A program made the translations under genes and the position numbers. Positions 9,759 through 33,550 of a stretch of 64,000 nucleotides of DNA are shown in pieces. The notes beneath the pieces are model-generated. The model saw only the letters and a list, made by a program, of their open reading frames with translations. It was not told where the DNA came from and did not search any database. Position 1 is the stretch's first letter; each line of letters begins with the position of its first letter. This stretch comes from Synechococcus sp. BO 8801. GTDB lineage: Bacteria; Cyanobacteriota; Cyanobacteriia; PCC-6307; Cyanobiaceae. The stretch is taken from contig NZ_NQKY01000007.1 in NCBI RefSeq assembly GCF_002252675.1, positions 1 through 64,000 on the forward strand, in the 5' to 3' direction.

Positions 9759-10607
9759 ATGACCGAGGGCATGGCAGGGGCATCGACCCTGGTGGAGCTG
9801 CTCCAGCTCCCCTTCATGCAGCGGGCCCTGCTGGGCGGTCTTCTCAGCGGCGCTCTCGGCGGCGTGCTGGGCAGCTTCGCCGTGCTGCGCCAGCTCTCCT
9901 TCTTCAGTGACGCCCTGGGCCATTCGGCCCTGCTCGGCATCACCCTGGGCCTGCTGCTGGGCATCGATCCCACCCTGGTGCTGATCCCCTTCGCGGTGCT
10001 GTTCGCCCTGATGACGAACCAGCTGGTGCAACGCAGCAAGCTGCCGGCCGATGCCCTGCTGAACATCGTCTATTCCTCTTCGCTCGCCATGGCCGTGGTG
10101 GCCCTGAGCCTGCTGCACGTCTACAAGGGCGGCATCCAGCAGCTCCTGTTCGGCGACATCCTGGGGGTCACCTGGCTCGACCTGGCCCTGATCGGGGCCC
10201 TGCTCGTCGTCACCACCGGCTACCTCACCCTCACCCGGCGCGACCAGGTGCTGCTCACCCTCGACGAACCCCTCGCCCGCTCCCGAGGGGTGGCCGTCTC
10301 CCTGCACCGGTTGCTGTTCCTGGTCCTGCTGGCCGTGGTGGTGGCCATCTCCGTCAAGGCGGTGGGGGTGCTGCTGATCAGCGCCTTCGTGGTCATCCCC
10401 GCCTGTGCCTCGCGGCTGGTCAGTCGGCGCTTCGGCACCTATGTGGCCCTCTCCGCCGGACTCGGGGCCGCCGGCGCCGTGCTCGGCCTGCTGCTGTCGG
10501 CCGCCTTTGCGCTGCCCTCCGGCCCCTGCGTCGTGATCGCCCAGCTGGTGGCCTTCCTGGTCGCCCTGGCGGTGGCACCGCTGCGGGGCCGGGCGGCGAC
10601 CTCCTGA
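9759..10607 (+). CDS. Metal ABC transporter permease (ZnuB/MntB-like)
   Basis: A 282-residue ABC-3 family permease with about eight hydrophobic segments. Family landmarks are FMQRALLGGLLSGALGGVLG at the N terminus, the SDALGHSALLG motif (around residues 48-58), and the late VGVLLISAFVVIPACAS segment. Partners in this family are zinc, manganese or iron uptake systems. No ATP-binding or metal-binding partner is in the window, so those subunits must be elsewhere. It is convergent with the cupin gene 7 nt away. Confidence 0.85.
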   Translation: MTEGMAGASTLVELLQLPFMQRALLGGLLSGALGGVLGSFAVLRQLSFFSDALGHSALLGITLGLLLGIDPTLVLIPFAVLFALMTNQLVQRSKLPADALLNIVYSSSLAMAVVALSLLHVYKGGIQQLLFGDILGVTWLDLALIGALLVVTTGYLTLTRRDQVLLTLDEPLARSRGVAVSLHRLLFLVLLAVVVAISVKAVGVLLISAFVVIPACASRLVSRRFGTYVALSAGLGAAGAVLGLLLSAAFALPSGPCVVIAQLVAFLVALAVAPLRGRAATS

Positions 10608-12018: not shown

Positions 12019-12596
12019 GGCTGGGCGGGCGAATCGTGGAGGAGGGCGCGCAGGCGGATCAGGCCCTGGCGGGCGCGGGTCTTGACGGTGCCGAGGGGCA
12101 ACTCCAGCAGCGCTCCGATCGCCGACTGGCTGAGTCCTTCGTAGTAGGCCATCTCCAGCACCTGGCGCTGGTTGGCGGGGATCGCCGCCAGGGCCCCCCG
12201 GACCCTGTCGGCCAGATCCTCGGACTCGGCACGGTCGTGGGGCGTGGGCACGGCCGCAGGGAACAGGTGCTCCGACCAGCGTTGCACCAGCTGCCAGCGG
12301 TTGGCGCGCTGGTTGAGGCGGTTGATGGCCATCGAGCGGGTCAACAGCAGCAGGTAGGCCAGCACCGGACCCCGAGCGGGGTCGTAGCGCCCCTGCTGCC
12401 AGTAGCGCAGGAAGACGTCATGGGTGAGGTCTTCGGCCTCCTGGCTCGAGCGGCACAGCCGCAGGGCCAGGCGGTACACCGGACCGCTGCAGCTGTCGTA
12501 GAGCGCGCCCAGATCGCCGGCCTCGCCAGGGGCCCCCGAAAGGGAGCCCCGCAGCGGCGGCCGTCTGGGGGGGGCTTCGGCGTCGGAGGGGTTCAC
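12015..12596 (-). CDS. ECF-type RNA polymerase sigma factor (SigK-like)
   Basis: A 193-residue protein with a sigma region 2 core (EAEDLTHDVFLRYWQQG), an interdomain linker, and a region 4 helix-turn-helix (MAYYEGLSQSAIGALLE, GTVKTRARQGLIRLR). No ATG exists in the right place; the GTG at 12596 gives a normal ECF length, whereas longer starts would run into the EamA gene. It is coupled to RskA and the cupin downstream. The likely output is a stress regulon; the signal (photo-oxidative or organic peroxide) is inferred only from the ChrR-like partner. Confidence 0.8.
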   Translation of the reverse strand: MNPSDAEAPPRRPPLRGSLSGAPGEAGDLGALYDSCSGPVYRLALRLCRSSQEAEDLTHDVFLRYWQQGRYDPARGPVLAYLLLLTRSMAINRLNQRANRWQLVQRWSEHLFPAAVPTPHDRAESEDLADRVRGALAAIPANQRQVLEMAYYEGLSQSAIGALLELPLGTVKTRARQGLIRLRALLHDSPAQP

Positions 12597-28278: not shown

Positions 28279-28368
28279 TTCGAACGCTCGCCATCACCTG
28301 GCCGCAAGGAGACAGTGGGGTTTGCAGGGCTCACTTGGAGGCGGCTCAGGTGAATGGCGGTGTTAGCT
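28279..28368 (-). other. attC site
   Basis: 90 bp. Arms CGCCATCACCTGGCCGCAAGG and GGCGGCTCAGGTGAATGGCG pair well, right core GTTAGCT (28362-28368) has one mismatch, left core TTCGAAC is degenerate. Closely similar to the site at 29799. It supplies the stop of the DUF2442 gene. Confidence 0.7.
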
Positions 28369-28623
28369 GACCAGTGCCTTTGCCTGGGGGGCTGGCGCAC
28401 CACGAAGTAGGCCTTCCACACTTAAATCCTCATCGACAGCTGGCCAGTGAATTCCGTAGCCAGCCCCAGCAATCTCCCAGTTGTCACGCTCCTGAGATGT
28501 TGCATGCAGAAGCCTTGGGAACCAGGCCAATGGCACCGAGATAGAACGACCATCAGCCAGGTCGACGATCAGCCTGTCTTCTGTCAACGCAACGTCAGTG
28601 ACCTGCTCACCAGGGTTAGCCAT
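28363..28623 (-). CDS. DUF2442 protein
   Basis: An 86-residue protein with the DUF2442 pattern: VTDVALTEDRLIVDLADGRS, then VPLAWFPRLLHATSQERDNW and a GIHWPAVDEDLSVEGLL end. It overlaps the DUF4160 gene by 8 nt. The DUF4160-DUF2442 pair is common on mobile elements and suspected to be toxin-antitoxin-like, but the mechanism is not established. Its TAA stop lies in the attC core. Confidence 0.85.
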   Translation of the reverse strand: MANPGEQVTDVALTEDRLIVDLADGRSISVPLAWFPRLLHATSQERDNWEIAGAGYGIHWPAVDEDLSVEGLLRGAPAPQAKALVS

Positions 28624-28849
28624 GAAACTCCTCCCATGCTTTCAGAAGGATAGCTCTGTTCAAGCTGACCAGCCGTTCAATTTCGCGCAGATCTCTGGCG
28701 CTGAAACCAAGGCTCGAGGACAATGCAACAGAAACAAGCCAGACCTTGCAAGAAGCCTTATCTCTGTCGACATGAACATGGGGAGGCTCGTTTGGCTCGT
28801 GACTGTAGAAGTAGACCCTATAAGGACCGCTTCTGAGGATTGTCGGCAT
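28616..28849 (-). CDS. DUF4160 protein
   Basis: A 77-residue protein with the DUF4160 core: RSGPYRVYFYSHEPNEPPHV, followed by a basic helix and a C-terminal AWEEFHG. It is translationally linked to the DUF2442 gene. The two form a complete two-gene cassette between attC sites at 28279 and 28900. Confidence 0.85.
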   Translation of the reverse strand: MPTILRSGPYRVYFYSHEPNEPPHVHVDRDKASCKVWLVSVALSSSLGFSARDLREIERLVSLNRAILLKAWEEFHG

Positions 28850-28899: not shown

Positions 28900-28989
28900 A
28901 GCTAACGCTGCCCCTGAGTGGCAGGCAAGAAGCCATCACAACATGAGAAGACATCTGGGTGGTCTGCCCACTCCAGGGGCTTGTTAGAT
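28900..28989 (-). other. attC site
   Basis: 90 bp. Right core GTTAGAT (28983-28989) matches; left core AGCTAAC has one mismatch. Arms CGCTGCCCCTGAGTGGCAGGC and GTCTGCCCACTCCAGGGGC pair. Same family as the site at 27455. Confidence 0.8.
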
Positions 28990-29002: not shown

Positions 29003-29719
29003 TTAGGTCTGCTCCAGAGTCTCATAAAGCATGCACTCAGCCAGAACGGATTCCAACTCTGCCTCATTCATGCAGAAAATCTCTGTATCGGGTCTGCGGA
29101 GAGAGGAGAATTTAGAATGCAGTTCTGCCTCTACTCTGAGGCTGTCCTGCTCTGTACTCAATTGTATGGACTTAATAAGTCGACAAGGGCCAAACTGCTT
29201 GATTCTTCTTGGAATTGACTTGGCCTTTCCTATCTTGTAGTAGTGCTGCCCAGCTGCCGTTTTTTGAAAAGTCAGTAGCTGAACTAGATACACGTGGCTG
29301 TGCGTCACATCTTGAAGATCATGCAAAGTGAAAGCAGGACCGCCCTCTTGCCTTAACCTCATTGGCGGGGTCGCCCACCTTGAGACAATATGGGCCATTA
29401 GCCGCTTGGTGGCCATAGGGCTCGCCAAATACATGTACTCCTCAGTATCAGAATAAATTGCATACCACTTCCTGCCTCGCGCTTTTGTAAGGCTTGGCCG
29501 GTGGCCGGTCTGCCTCCATGGAATCTCTTCATCCTGTCTTATCCCTCCTGCTTCTTTGAGCTCTCTAGAATGATATAGCCAAACGGTCCCCTTTGCTCTG
29601 TCCTCAGGATCTTTCCAAAAGACAGAATAGACTTCAATCTTGTTAGGCTTTCTTGGTGGCGCTGGTTTCGGTGGACCACCTCGGGGATCGCCTGAATACC
29701 TGCGTCTCTTGATAGGCAT
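29003..29719 (-). CDS. T5orf172/GIY-YIG-like protein (cassette)
   Basis: A 238-residue protein with a basic N terminus (MPIKRRRYSGDP) and a C-terminal T5orf172/MUG113-type domain: VYLVQLLTF, then YYKIGKAKSIPRRIKQFG, then LRVEAELHSKFSSLRRPDTE. This is the GIY-YIG nuclease fold (Y, K, R, H and E residues in the expected order). The first ~120 residues are unassigned. A DNA-targeting role such as defence or anti-element activity is plausible but unproven. Low-GC compared with the chromosome. Confidence 0.7.
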   Translation of the reverse strand: MPIKRRRYSGDPRGGPPKPAPPRKPNKIEVYSVFWKDPEDRAKGTVWLYHSRELKEAGGIRQDEEIPWRQTGHRPSLTKARGRKWYAIYSDTEEYMYLASPMATKRLMAHIVSRWATPPMRLRQEGGPAFTLHDLQDVTHSHVYLVQLLTFQKTAAGQHYYKIGKAKSIPRRIKQFGPCRLIKSIQLSTEQDSLRVEAELHSKFSSLRRPDTEIFCMNEAELESVLAECMLYETLEQT

Positions 29720-29798: not shown

Positions 29799-29888
29799 AT
29801 CTAACGCTTGCCATCACCTGGCCGCAAGGAATACCGGGATCGAGACAAGTGATCAAGGTGGCGGCTCAGGTGAATGGCAGTGTTAGAT
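29799..29888 (-). other. attC site with intact cores
   Basis: 90 bp. Left core ATCTAAC (29799-29805) and right core GTTAGAT (29882-29888) both match the consensus. Arms CGCTTGCCATCACCTGGCC and GGCTCAGGTGAATGGCAG pair. The right core provides the TAA of the RAMA gene. Confidence 0.85.
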
Positions 29889-30818
29889 AGTTCCTGATGA
29901 ATCAGAGGCCAAGAACTGGCTTCGGATGTCTGCGAGAGTTCGACCATCTGCAACCAACCAGCTTGTCCAGCCGTTTACAGTCTTTCTATCGCTGCCAGCG
30001 TCATTAATTCCGCGGAGAGCAGCATAGCTTGGACTTGAATAGGTCTGACCCATAAAGTCAATGGATCCATCTTCGCACAATATGGAATTATATGTTCGTT
30101 GCTCACCGCCACGAGGCTTGTAACGCATCACCAGCTCTTGTCCTGCATTCATCAAGCCGGCACCAATCAAATCGGCCAGAGTTGCCTCGTAGACCGCATA
30201 TTTATTCTTGTCCTCGCCTTCGGGTGCTGTGTCAACGCTCGGGGTAAATTCGTCTGGAATCTCATAGGCTATTTGCGTTGGGTTATCAAAGTCCACAAGC
30301 TTACGAATTTCCCAAAGGCGAACCTCGGCTCTCTGTTGCTCAGCCCACAATCGCAAGTCGCGGCTGATCGAATCAATAGGTATAGCAACAACCGGCGGAC
30401 AAGACAGGATATCGTTGACTACGGAGCGAACGTCTATTTGCTGGATGCCGTGTTCATCAAACTTGACTCGAACAGAATCATCACGCAAGTAAAGATCCAC
30501 GAGCACCTGCTCTAAAACTGACTTAGTGGCTGGCTGAATAGAAGCCGCAATCTGCTTGGCGACTTGAGGCGCTATGTGTGCCCATACTCCGTGCCCCAAT
30601 AACTCAGCTTCGACTAGATACCATTTGCGCTGTTGCAAATCAAGTGCGAACGCATCAGGAATGGTCCCAGCGCCATTTGGGCTGCGAATCAGCTTTTTAG
30701 GCAGCAGGACAGAGTCAGGGCCAAATATGTACTCATAATTCTCCAGCAAAACAGTCTCAAGCTCACTCTCACTGGTGAACGGAGATTGAATGAAACGCCG
30801 GCTATCAAGAAGCAGCAT
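29883..30818 (-). CDS. PD-(D/E)XK-like protein with C-terminal RAMA domain (cassette)
   Basis: A 311-residue protein. The N-terminal ~180 residues contain IPDAFALDLQQRKWYLVEAE, with D55 and E70/E72 where a PD-(D/E)XK-type nuclease has its catalytic acidic residues, although the usual Lys is not obvious. The C-terminal ~95 residues match the RAMA/DUF4357 module: LADLIGAGLMNAGQELVMRY, DFMGQTYSSPSYAAL and NGWTSWLVADG. RAMA is predicted to bind modified DNA. A sensor-nuclease of modified DNA is a reasonable hypothesis. Stop is in the attC core. Confidence 0.65.
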   Translation of the reverse strand: MLLLDSRRFIQSPFTSESELETVLLENYEYIFGPDSVLLPKKLIRSPNGAGTIPDAFALDLQQRKWYLVEAELLGHGVWAHIAPQVAKQIAASIQPATKSVLEQVLVDLYLRDDSVRVKFDEHGIQQIDVRSVVNDILSCPPVVAIPIDSISRDLRLWAEQQRAEVRLWEIRKLVDFDNPTQIAYEIPDEFTPSVDTAPEGEDKNKYAVYEATLADLIGAGLMNAGQELVMRYKPRGGEQRTYNSILCEDGSIDFMGQTYSSPSYAALRGINDAGSDRKTVNGWTSWLVADGRTLADIRSQFLASDSSGTI

Positions 30819-30846
30819 TGGATACCTTGGCTCGATGGTGGAGTCT

Positions 30847-30931
30847 ATCTAACGCTCAAGATCAGAAGCGGGCAGAGGCTTCAGCATTGGCAGGACCATG
30901 CGCACCCGTCTTCTGCATCTTGATGTTAGGC
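30847..30931 (-). other. attC site with intact cores
   Basis: 85 bp. ATCTAAC (30847-30853) and GTTAGGC (30925-30931) match the consensus. Arms CTCAAGATCAGAAGC and CTTCTGCATCTTGATG pair. Family shared with 31882 and 26345. Confidence 0.85.
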
Positions 30932-30932
30932 C

Positions 30933-31865
30933 TCACTCGGCGAAAGATGAGGATTTTGTGGGAGCGATCCTGTACTCCAGGCGGACTTCGTCAAGGGCAT
31001 TTCCAGGACCACGAACCTGAATAGAGAGAACCTTGGTGGCGAGGAAGTAACCTGCCGTGTTCTGCCAGATAAGGATTTCACCCAGGTAGGGCGTACGCAC
31101 CCGCGAAGACGGATCGTACTGGGTTGCGTCTTGTATCTCAGATATCTCTTGGGCACCAACTGCAATTGCCACGCTGCGGATACTCGGCGGATCGGTGTAT
31201 GCGTGAATCGAGTTGCCTCCAGCTCGCGACCAGGCGGTCTCGAATGCCATGTCACCAGCGCCGAATGTGAAGCGCCCGTTGTTGTTTGAATAGTCAAAGG
31301 CGACCACGCCTCTAATGGCTGGAGACAGATAGCGTTCGGCGCCGAAGGAGACGACTGGTGCGATCGCAGGTGTTGTGACCGTGAAGGGATTCGCGCCAAG
31401 TGGTGGTCGCGGTTTCACTTCTTGACCATGGATATCACGTATCAGTTCAGCATACTTGGCTTCAAAGGCCAAGTCGTCTCTGAAGTCGATGTGAACTCGC
31501 GAAGACAAGAAGGTAGGAACAGGTGGAGTCAGAGTGTTTGCCCGAACAACAGGAATGATTCGCTCAGACGTGACGTCCTGCATCAGCTGTGCAGTCAAGA
31601 TCATCTTTTCGTACCCAACGCCACCGCGGCCAGCATTTGCCTTCTGCACGTATGGCTCCGTACAGACAGAAAGAACTCGCTCTGCAGAAGAGAGGCCCTG
31701 CTCCATGAACCTTGGGAGGTCGCTCCCAAGAGAGAGATCCCATTGATCAAGGATTACGTCCACTCCGTTCGCAACCAGACGCGTTGCCAGTGCGAGCACC
31801 CAATCCTTGTGCGGCTCGCTGTCGTGCGAGTAGGAGAGGAAGACCTTGGGCGCAGTGGTTGCCAT
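30933..31865 (-). CDS. SEFIR/TIR-type protein with uncharacterised C-terminal domain (cassette)
   Basis: A 310-residue protein. Residues ~6-110 match the SEFIR/TIR fold: KVFLSYSHDSEPHKDWVLAL, then DVILDQWDLSLGSDLPRFME, then VLSVCTEPYVQKANAG. The remaining ~190 residues, after RPPLGANPF, look like a mostly beta domain of no family I know. Bacterial TIR/SEFIR proteins are NAD-consuming or signalling effectors in antiphage defence. This one stands alone between two intact attC sites, so it would be a single-gene cassette. Confidence 0.75.
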   Translation of the reverse strand: MATTAPKVFLSYSHDSEPHKDWVLALATRLVANGVDVILDQWDLSLGSDLPRFMEQGLSSAERVLSVCTEPYVQKANAGRGGVGYEKMILTAQLMQDVTSERIIPVVRANTLTPPVPTFLSSRVHIDFRDDLAFEAKYAELIRDIHGQEVKPRPPLGANPFTVTTPAIAPVVSFGAERYLSPAIRGVVAFDYSNNNGRFTFGAGDMAFETAWSRAGGNSIHAYTDPPSIRSVAIAVGAQEISEIQDATQYDPSSRVRTPYLGEILIWQNTAGYFLATKVLSIQVRGPGNALDEVRLEYRIAPTKSSSFAE

Positions 31866-31881: not shown

Positions 31882-31968
31882 ACCTAACGCTCAAGATCAG
31901 CGGCGGGCAGAAGCTCTGTGCGCACTTCAAGCATGATTTCCCCCGCCCGCTGAATCTTGATGTTAGAT
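31882..31968 (-). other. attC site with intact cores
   Basis: 87 bp. ACCTAAC (31882-31888) and GTTAGAT (31962-31968) match the consensus. Arms CTCAAGATCAGCGGCGGGC and GCCCGCTGAATCTTGATG pair strongly. Confidence 0.9.
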
Positions 31969-31994: not shown

Positions 31995-32543
31995 CTATCG
32001 CAGCTCTCTCAGCTGGACATCTTTTATTTTATTCTTTATTACTTTATCCCTTGGGTCATTGGCTGGTAAGCGTTCGTCGATGATGCCTAGGTAGTAAGCC
32101 GCTTTGGCATAATCCTTCCGCGCCTCTGCTGACTCAGATAGCATCCTAAGCTCGCGTATTGACACTGAATCAAGTGACTTGGTTGTGTCCTGATTCGAGA
32201 AAAGTAAACGAGGTCCAACAAGTAACGCAAAGATAATCACAAGATACCTCATCAACTCTGAGTACCAAGCCTGCCGATCCCGCTGGTCAGACATTGCTGC
32301 AGCCAAGAGAAGAAGGAAAAATGCAGAGATGAACAAGCCTACAACTACTGTGCTCCAAGTTATGGCAAGTCCTAGACTTATTCTGGAAGGCTCAAATGCT
32401 CTAATCAGGCTGCCAAGGAATATCCCAAGCGAAATCAAAGCGAACTCCTTCCGGTGCTTACCAAGCTTCGGAAAGACGTCAAACATCTGGATTCCGAAAC
32501 CAATCAGCGACGCAATCCCGGTAACAATGGTAAACGACTCCAT
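31995..32543 (-). CDS. Membrane protein of unknown function (first cassette)
   Basis: A 182-residue protein with four hydrophobic segments in the N-terminal ~120 residues (TIVTGIASLIGFGIQMFDVF, ALISLGIFLGSLIRAF and two more) and a soluble helical tail (YAKAAYYLGIIDERLPANDP, resembling a TPR-like repeat). No known family. It occupies the position next to attI and intI, so it is the most recently inserted cassette if the array grows in the usual way. Confidence 0.6.
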   Translation of the reverse strand: MESFTIVTGIASLIGFGIQMFDVFPKLGKHRKEFALISLGIFLGSLIRAFEPSRISLGLAITWSTVVVGLFISAFFLLLLAAAMSDQRDRQAWYSELMRYLVIIFALLVGPRLLFSNQDTTKSLDSVSIRELRMLSESAEARKDYAKAAYYLGIIDERLPANDPRDKVIKNKIKDVQLRELR

Positions 32544-32732: not shown

Positions 32733-33550
32733 TTACAGAAGGTCCACCGGGCTCATCACCCCACAGGGGCCACGATTCAGCACATGCGTATAGATCATCG
32801 TGGTCTTCACGTCGCTGTGCCCCAGCAATTCCTGGATGGTGCGGATGTCCTGGCCACGCTCCAGCAGGTGAGTCGCAAACGAGTGGCGAAAGGTGTGGCA
32901 GCTGGCAGGCTTGCTGATTCCGGCCCGCAGGATTGCCCGCTTCACCGCCTTCTGAATCACGGACGGGTCAATGTGGTGCCGGCCTTCCGTTCGAGTCCCT
33001 GCGTCACGCCAACGGTGCGATTGTGGGAAGACCCACTGCCAGCCCCATTCCGAGGCAGCGTTCGGGTACTTCCTTCCCAATGCCATCGGCAGCACCACCA
33101 GCAGATGATTCTGCAAGGGCTCCATAAGGCTGGCGGGGAACACGGTGACCCGGTCCTTGTCGCCTTTGCCACTGCGGACGGTCACTTGCCGGGCTTCGAG
33201 ATCCACATCCTGCACCCGGAGCCTCAGCGCTTCCATCAGCCGCAGTCCGCAGCCATAGAGCATCTGCGCCACGAGGTGTTCGGTTCCCTTGAGCTGCTGC
33301 AGCACGGCCCTCACCTCCGCCACCGTGAACACCACCGGCAACCGCTTGGGCTGCCGGGCGCGCACCACCCCTTCCAGGTTGCCCACATCTCCCCCAAGCA
33401 CGTGCCTGTAGAGAAAGAGCAGGGCGGATAACGCCTGGTTCTGCGTGGAGGCACTCACTTGCCCCACCGTGGCCAGGGGATGCCGCATCCCGTGAAAGCG
33501 CAGAAAGCGATTCACCCACTGGGCATGAGTTCCTCACGGTAACGATCCAT
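32733..33550 (-). pseudogene. intI: Integron integrase IntI, degenerate N-terminal domain
   Basis: The catalytic part is convincing: an IntI-specific [13 protein letters not shown] insertion (residues ~152-164 from the GTG at 33515) and the tyrosine-recombinase residues R92, H207, R210, H233 and Y242. The N-terminal core-binding domain is defective. RHP runs directly into [14 protein letters not shown], so about 14 residues of the usual helix are missing. Upstream, an in-frame TGA precedes THAQWV, while MDRYREEL, likely the original N terminus, lies in another frame. Whether the remnant is translated from the GTG and active is unknown. Confidence 0.75.

Follow-up and report, generated by a model that had tools for sequence, protein, structure and literature searches.

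What would a 311-residue protein with a RAMA domain at its C-terminal end do for the cyanobacterium that carries it in an integron? The question arises from a gene of Synechococcus sp. BO 8801 in the window, the whole 64,000-nucleotide stretch of contig NZ_NQKY01000007.1 that was analysed. RAMA has been proposed as a reader of modified bases, and the published binding results conflict as far as the accessible texts go. This compact two-domain protein has no evident DNA-recognition part other than RAMA, so that it would offer a clean test of the target of RAMA. The features discussed below are located in Table 1.

Table 1 Positions of the cassette array features and of the parts of the 311-residue protein in the window.
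Feature	Position	Strand	Basis
Gene cassette between two recombination points	29805..30852	-	attC scans; DNA common to L002 and L003 ends within 15 bases
311-residue gene, predicted nuclease-fold module and RAMA	29883..30818	-	Intact ORF, ATG start
Predicted N-terminal nuclease-fold module, residues 1-190	30249..30818	-	AlphaFold2 pLDDT 91.1; EndoMS/NucS Z 9.8
Signature P54-D55 ... E70-x-E72 ... H76 ... H81-I82 ... Q85, residues 54-89	30552..30659	-	48-sequence alignment
RAMA domain, residues 204-305	29904..30209	-	Pfam; same place in host-genome search; MPND and CcrM fold matches
attC of the RAMA-gene cassette, overlapping the stop codon	29799..29888		Motif and hairpin scans
attC of the preceding (SEFIR) cassette	30847..30931		Motif and hairpin scans
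attC separating the SEFIR cassette from the 31995-32543 ORF	31882..31968		Motif and hairpin scans
attC after the T5orf172 cassette	28900..28989		Relaxed hairpin scan
attC after the DUF4160/DUF2442 cassette	28279..28368		Relaxed hairpin scan
Integron integrase gene, apparently short at the N-terminus	32733..33515	-	TIGR02249, model 53-314 of 315, E 4e-107
SEFIR/TIR protein cassette	30933..31865	-	PADLOC bSEFIR match, E 3.7e-75
T5orf172/MUG113 protein cassette	29003..29719	-	Pfam

The whole window contains four RYYYAAC...GTTRRRY pairs, three of which fold as long imperfect hairpins (29799-29888, 30847-30931, and 31882-31968). When the attC scan was relaxed to a minimum of 15 end pairs, it returned seven sites, five of them with 20-24 end pairs. 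Chance probably accounts for the sites at 12258 (15 end pairs) and 26878 (17), because shuffling the window three times gave 5, 1, and 5 sites at an equal threshold. Integron recombination cuts between the G and the TT of GTTRRRY, and the limits of the RAMA-gene cassette were set on this basis. DNA common to the window and the two closest relatives (L002 and L003) extends in the main blastn match from 29790/29801 to 30853/30854. The shared unit thus roughly coincides with the cassette, which is good evidence for movement as one unit. The G+C content of the cassette is 0.50, while that outside the array is 72%, with 264 equal-length segments there ranging from 0.59 to 0.78. The gene had been described as cassette cargo, and this is borne out by the flanking attC-like hairpins that bound it, by the limits of the shared DNA, and by a nearby integron integrase gene, though the latter is apparently shortened.

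A stricter attC scan (18 end pairs) of the loci detected none next to the gene in L002, L003, or any further relative; the sites found in L017, L030, L037, and L050 are all away from the family gene. Among the loci scanned, an attC next to the family gene occurs in the window only. Judged by eye, the DNA downstream of the gene in L002 and L003 seems to be the same attC site with altered end boxes. Short further blastn matches connect L002 and L003 with attC-like and other places of the window. A second common stretch (L003 3666-4445 and window 9789-10568, 75% DNA identity) lies away from the cassette.

The integrase gene is without about the first 52 positions of TIGR02249, and by eye the stretch before VSASTQNQ is missing. 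Such an enzyme may no longer be active, and the array would then be frozen. In a classic integron the integrase is opposite in direction to the cassettes; here it has the same orientation as the cassettes (31995-28363, minus strand). In the SEFIR/TIR protein (310 residues) the bSEFIR match extends over residues 3-232 and leaves 78 C-terminal residues unmatched, and Pfam gave nothing at E <= 1 for the first 150 residues of the T5orf172/MUG113 protein. DUF4160 and DUF2442 genes lie together (28363-28849, minus strand) between two attC sites. The array also holds an addiction-module antidote-like protein, a GNAT acetyltransferase, and a cupin.

The RAMA domain that had been placed in the C-terminal half of the protein is clearly present at residues 204-305, with a Pfam match to PF18755 (E 1.3e-16) scoring 60.9 bits against the curated cut-off of 35.2. 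A profile search of the host genome gave the 311-residue gene as its sole PF18755 match at E <= 0.001, and RAMA was found in all 33 aligned family sequences, the window protein included, at E <= 1. Structure comparison of the predicted model matched this domain to MPND (Z 14.3, rmsd 1.3, 88 residues) and to the C-terminal part of CcrM (Z 12.5, rmsd 2.0, 87 residues). An NCBIfam scan of the whole protein gave no family. PDB sequence searches gave non-significant matches: MPND alone (E 1.2) with the family profile, and AcrIF25 (E 0.071), MPND (E 0.42), and two weaker entries with RAMA alone.

The N-terminal half, which had been called nuclease-like, matched no family above the cut-off in a Pfam scan. 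Structure prediction of this part had been suggested, and AlphaFold2 modelled residues 1-190 alone with a pLDDT of 91.1 and a pTM of 0.86 (83.8 and 0.63 for the full-length protein). Both models contain an alpha-beta-beta-beta-alpha-beta core, and the predicted elements are helix 17-32, strands 36-40, 56-60, and 65-69, helix 78-93, strand 143-148, helix 153-160, and strand 166-170. The matches listed by VIA-align and Foldseek are the basis of the fold comparisons. At the top of the VIA-align list is EndoMS/NucS (2vld_B, rmsd 2.6 over 108 residues, 13% identity) with a Z of 9.8, only somewhat higher than the 7 to 8 typical of models without a clear match. It is followed by a further EndoMS/NucS entry, 5gke_A (9.5), and then by Upx (8.8), AF1548 (8.4), the BspD6I small subunit (8.4), and HamA of Hachiman (8.1). 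Five of the seven listed entries with Z >= 8 are nucleases (2vld, 5gke, 5gkj, 2p14, and 8vxy, the last being HamA, which we take to be a nuclease), Upx and AF1548 not being so named. Lower in the list are Shedu (6.8), SdaI, PaqCI, an McrBC entry, MspJI, and unrelated proteins. Foldseek gave no match at E <= 0.001, the best being 5gke (0.039, probability 0.97). Taken together, the topology, the run of nucleases atop the list, and the motif described below suggest that the module has a PD-(D/E)XK-type fold in an ExE variant, which we do not file as a canonical member. At the level of prediction, the module is thus nuclease-like as had been claimed, with EndoMS/NucS closest.

Distant relatives of this module carry other C-terminal parts. 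That of L049 is a diverged RAMA (E 0.0013, under the Pfam cut-off), and a DUF5655-like C-terminus is over the cut-off in L052, just under it in L054, and weak in L051; the three DUF5655-like proteins scanned match PADLOC PDC-S18. An unnamed conserved domain of about 122 residues occurs in L043-L045 and L055-L058, and L050 has yet another C-terminal part without a name. Pfam covered 10 of the 13 distant proteins (L045, L053, and L058 were outside) and gave no match above the cut-off for the unnamed domain in the five members scanned. This domain matches two plasmid proteins annotated as ‘GIY-YIG nuclease family protein’ (49-52% identity). A PDB search with alignment A4 on the nature of this domain gave nothing convincing (best E 0.016), and a viral scan with the domain alone gave no relative. 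Two relatives of the module with other C-terminal domains, L059 and L060, are on IMG/VR viral contigs. DUF4357 is described in the accessible part of one study as occurring with GIY-YIG and T5orf172 domains (PMC4619093). The overall picture would be one of mixing of nuclease modules with DNA-recognition modules.

The gene neighbourhood is not conserved. Clustering of proteins over 40 loci placed the family cluster in 38 and the next shared cluster in 4, and there is neither a conserved neighbour gene nor a steady methyltransferase partner. Among the matches listed, some relatives are near restriction or methylase genes and others near housekeeping genes.

What RAMA would contribute depends on what it binds. 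In the accessible texts, the RAMA of MPND showed no preference for sequence in binding duplex DNA and was unaffected by 6mA, contrary to an earlier pull-down that reported a preference (PMC9963953), and the C-terminal domain of CcrM contacts the backbone at phosphates of the non-target strand (PMC6787082). The role of RAMA as a 6mA reader is a prediction. By eye, the conserved residues reported for the studied RAMA domains line up with conserved ones here. By analogy, DNA binding by this domain is well grounded, and reading of a modified base is not.

The explanation we tentatively favour, giving it somewhat less than an even chance as a whole, is a defence nuclease encoded by one gene and mobile as an integron cassette, which RAMA would steer to DNA and which would cut in a modification-dependent manner. 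RAMA would clamp the protein onto duplex DNA via phosphate contacts of the conserved S262/S264, N282, W284, and R299, and the N-terminal module would bind a metal by D55, E70, and E72 and then cut. Cutting might, less surely, be confined to DNA with a base modification absent from the host, a type IV-like logic, since a nuclease acting alone, with no methyltransferase partner, has to spare the host somehow. The parts of this explanation differ in strength. The protein is quite probably a DNA nuclease; a defence role, suggested by context and mobility, is somewhat likely; modification dependence of the cutting is plausible but slightly less likely than not. The protein may instead be a defence nuclease for which RAMA is a general duplex-DNA clamp and the switch is infection, DNA ends, or DNA structure. 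Backbone binding by the studied RAMA domains and the unresponsiveness of the MPND domain to 6mA (PMC9963953, PMC6787082, accessible parts) argue for such an enzyme, as do the presence of HamA and Shedu among the fold matches and the replacement of RAMA by a DUF5655-like domain. The 40 loci show no conserved trigger or regulator gene next to it, and we consider this account unlikely, if by no means negligible.

The favoured defence nuclease would need a working active site. A PD-(D/E)XK-like motif had been proposed from the string IPDAFALDLQQRKWYLVEAE, which corresponds to residues 53-72. D55, E70, and E72 are invariant in all 33 aligned sequences, the window protein included; the motif is therefore not a chance one, and the three candidate catalytic residues picked in the preliminary description are the right ones to mutate. 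In a larger set of 48 sequences (the 33 RAMA-bearing proteins and 15 that carry a different C-terminal part), P54, D55, E70, H76, H81, I82, Q85, and D149 are invariant. Two further positions vary in a single sequence each: E72, present in 47, is replaced by D, and D60, also present in 47, by N. The family signature is thus PD...Ex(E/D)...H...H...Q, and in the window protein PD-x14-ExE is followed by two histidines and a glutamine. The PD and the acidic pair expected of PD-(D/E)XK (D55 and E70) are kept in 48/48, and this part of the proposal stands; the lysine at the third catalytic position is absent throughout, so that the motif is to be read as PD...ExE. A catalytically dead DNA-binding protein, such as a regulator or protector keeping the nuclease fold, would account for the missing lysine (47 E and one D in its place). 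However, this lysine is usual rather than universal, BamHI having an ExE active site with E at that position, and invariance of D55, E70, H76, H81, and Q85 despite several C-terminal domains would be unlikely for a decayed site. A dead enzyme is accordingly improbable. The module may define a superfamily, as yet without a name, whose members would be one-gene nucleases sharing a PD...Ex(E/D)...H...H...Q site and differing in swapped C-terminal sensors (RAMA, diverged RAMA, DUF5655-like, the unnamed GIY-YIG-associated domain, and at least one more), for which the chance is close to even but on the lower side.

One genome-contig scan gave 40 relatives of the protein, with titles naming Cyanobacteria, Bacteroidetes and kin, Deltaproteobacteria, Spirochaetes, Verrucomicrobia, Thermotogales, and others; these taxon labels are uncertain because nearly all relatives are metagenome bins. 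L025 and L026 are identical in protein with similar neighbours, and the labelling of their bins as Bacteroidales and Marinamargulisbacteria is probably a binning error. The 33-row alignment comprises the window protein and 32 of the 37 relatives L002-L038, leaving out L031, L037, and L038 (frame breaks), L033 (contig end), and L026 (duplicate of L025). Breakage of the gene by frame changes or stops in L031, L037, and L038 fits accessory genes in turnover. Protein identity to the window copy is 95% for L002 and 93% for L003, and it falls to 47-53% in the remaining 30 aligned relatives. Among the window copy, L002, and L003, dN/dS amounts to 0.062-0.076 over the whole gene, with 0.024-0.047 in the part for residues 1-190 and 0.134-0.197 in that for RAMA. 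These values indicate strong purifying selection, with more constraint on the nuclease-fold half, and therefore argue against a decaying gene. The N-terminal module is rare and patchy in the phyla scanned: scanning with its profile at E <= 1e-5 gave 4 matching genomes for the host phylum (292 genomes), 13 for that of L021 (296), and 6 for that of L008 (198), the host and the other centre genomes included. The RAMA form is present in the host only among the four host-phylum genomes with the module, and tblastn and pattern scans of phage, plasmid, and IMG/VR collections gave no RAMA-form copy at the sensitivity used. This distribution bears on the idea of an EndoMS/NucS-like DNA repair nuclease for mismatches or damage, to which the top structural match points. 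Its patchiness is at odds with such a role, as are the lack of a conserved neighbour and carriage by a cassette whose array also contains bSEFIR-like and addiction-type genes, and repair is slightly less probable still than a dead enzyme.

For the favoured modification-dependent defence nuclease, the methylases of the host and of the neighbouring genes are of interest. A motif search was added to the clustering because unlike methylases need not cluster. With crude patterns and many short contigs, an amino-methyltransferase-type motif in an ORF of > 150 residues was found in 3 of 37 loci (L009, L012, and L024), and the one C5-type pattern tried was found in none. We also scanned 45 neighbours (43 of the 66 listed immediate ones, mostly > 100 residues, and two next-nearest). 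Among the best 25 of 75 Pfam families, N6_Mtase and MmeI each occur in one neighbour and Eco57I in two; among the best 25 of 82 PADLOC families, a type I methylase and a type IIG enzyme each occur in one. That the protein is the nuclease partner in a type II restriction-modification system is very improbable: BspD6I, SdaI, and PaqCI (type II or IIS) are among the fold matches and the type IIG enzyme and type I methylase are among the neighbour matches listed, but methyltransferase-type motifs are present in so few loci and no methyltransferase lies inside the cassette. The host genome has no PF01555, PF02086, or PF00145 match and two PF02384 N6-methylase matches, from which its DNA may carry 6mA. 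In its genus 13 of 37 genomes match PF02086 and 24 do not (host counted, some incomplete). This absence is ordinary in the genus, and host methylation, once considered as proof of type IV logic, gives it weak support.

If the superfamily is real, it would be a family of restriction-like enzymes with interchangeable sensors, spread by cassettes and other routes, and the exchanged C-terminal domains would be a way to test the little-known DUF5655-like and unnamed domains as DNA sensors. An integron with a bSEFIR-matching gene would gain another candidate single-gene defence cassette.

The closest solved fold among the matches listed is the C-terminal catalytic domain of EndoMS/NucS, a DNA endonuclease with RecB-like motifs according to the accessible text (PMC8228993). 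NucS has its DNA-binding domain first, whereas the present protein has no DNA-binding domain ahead of its nuclease-fold module and RAMA comes after it; the window protein also differs in its glutamate for lysine and in being patchy and mobile. Two PADLOC models match the RAMA part. PDC-S14 aligns residues 200-306 with model positions 176-275 of 280 (E 5.8e-15), leaving the first 175 unmatched; the PDC families derive from ‘guilt-by-embedding’, and PDC-S14 is stated in the part available to overlap GAO_29, which appears restriction-like (PMC10855318). The PtuB1 model of Septu aligns positions 325-390 of 391 with the RAMA-like end, residues 239-306 (E 4.5e-4), and the PADLOC scan found no other Septu feature. 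The C-terminal domain of CcrM and the RAMA of MPND share the fold, but are joined to a methyltransferase and an MPN domain, respectively, and not to a nuclease. In the accessible open literature (PMC) we found no description of the present N-terminal module fused to RAMA. Prokaryotic fusions of RAMA with Mrr PD-QXK and an NTPase and of GIY-YIG with RAMA are described in part of one text as type IV candidates (PMC11037411), and a RAMA-HNH fusion is named in an author biography (PMC12707154). RAMA-nuclease fusions have thus been reported; the present protein resembles them in joining RAMA to a predicted nuclease and differs in its PD-ExE-H-H-Q module without an NTPase, and what is new here is this nuclease module, as yet without a Pfam or NCBIfam name.
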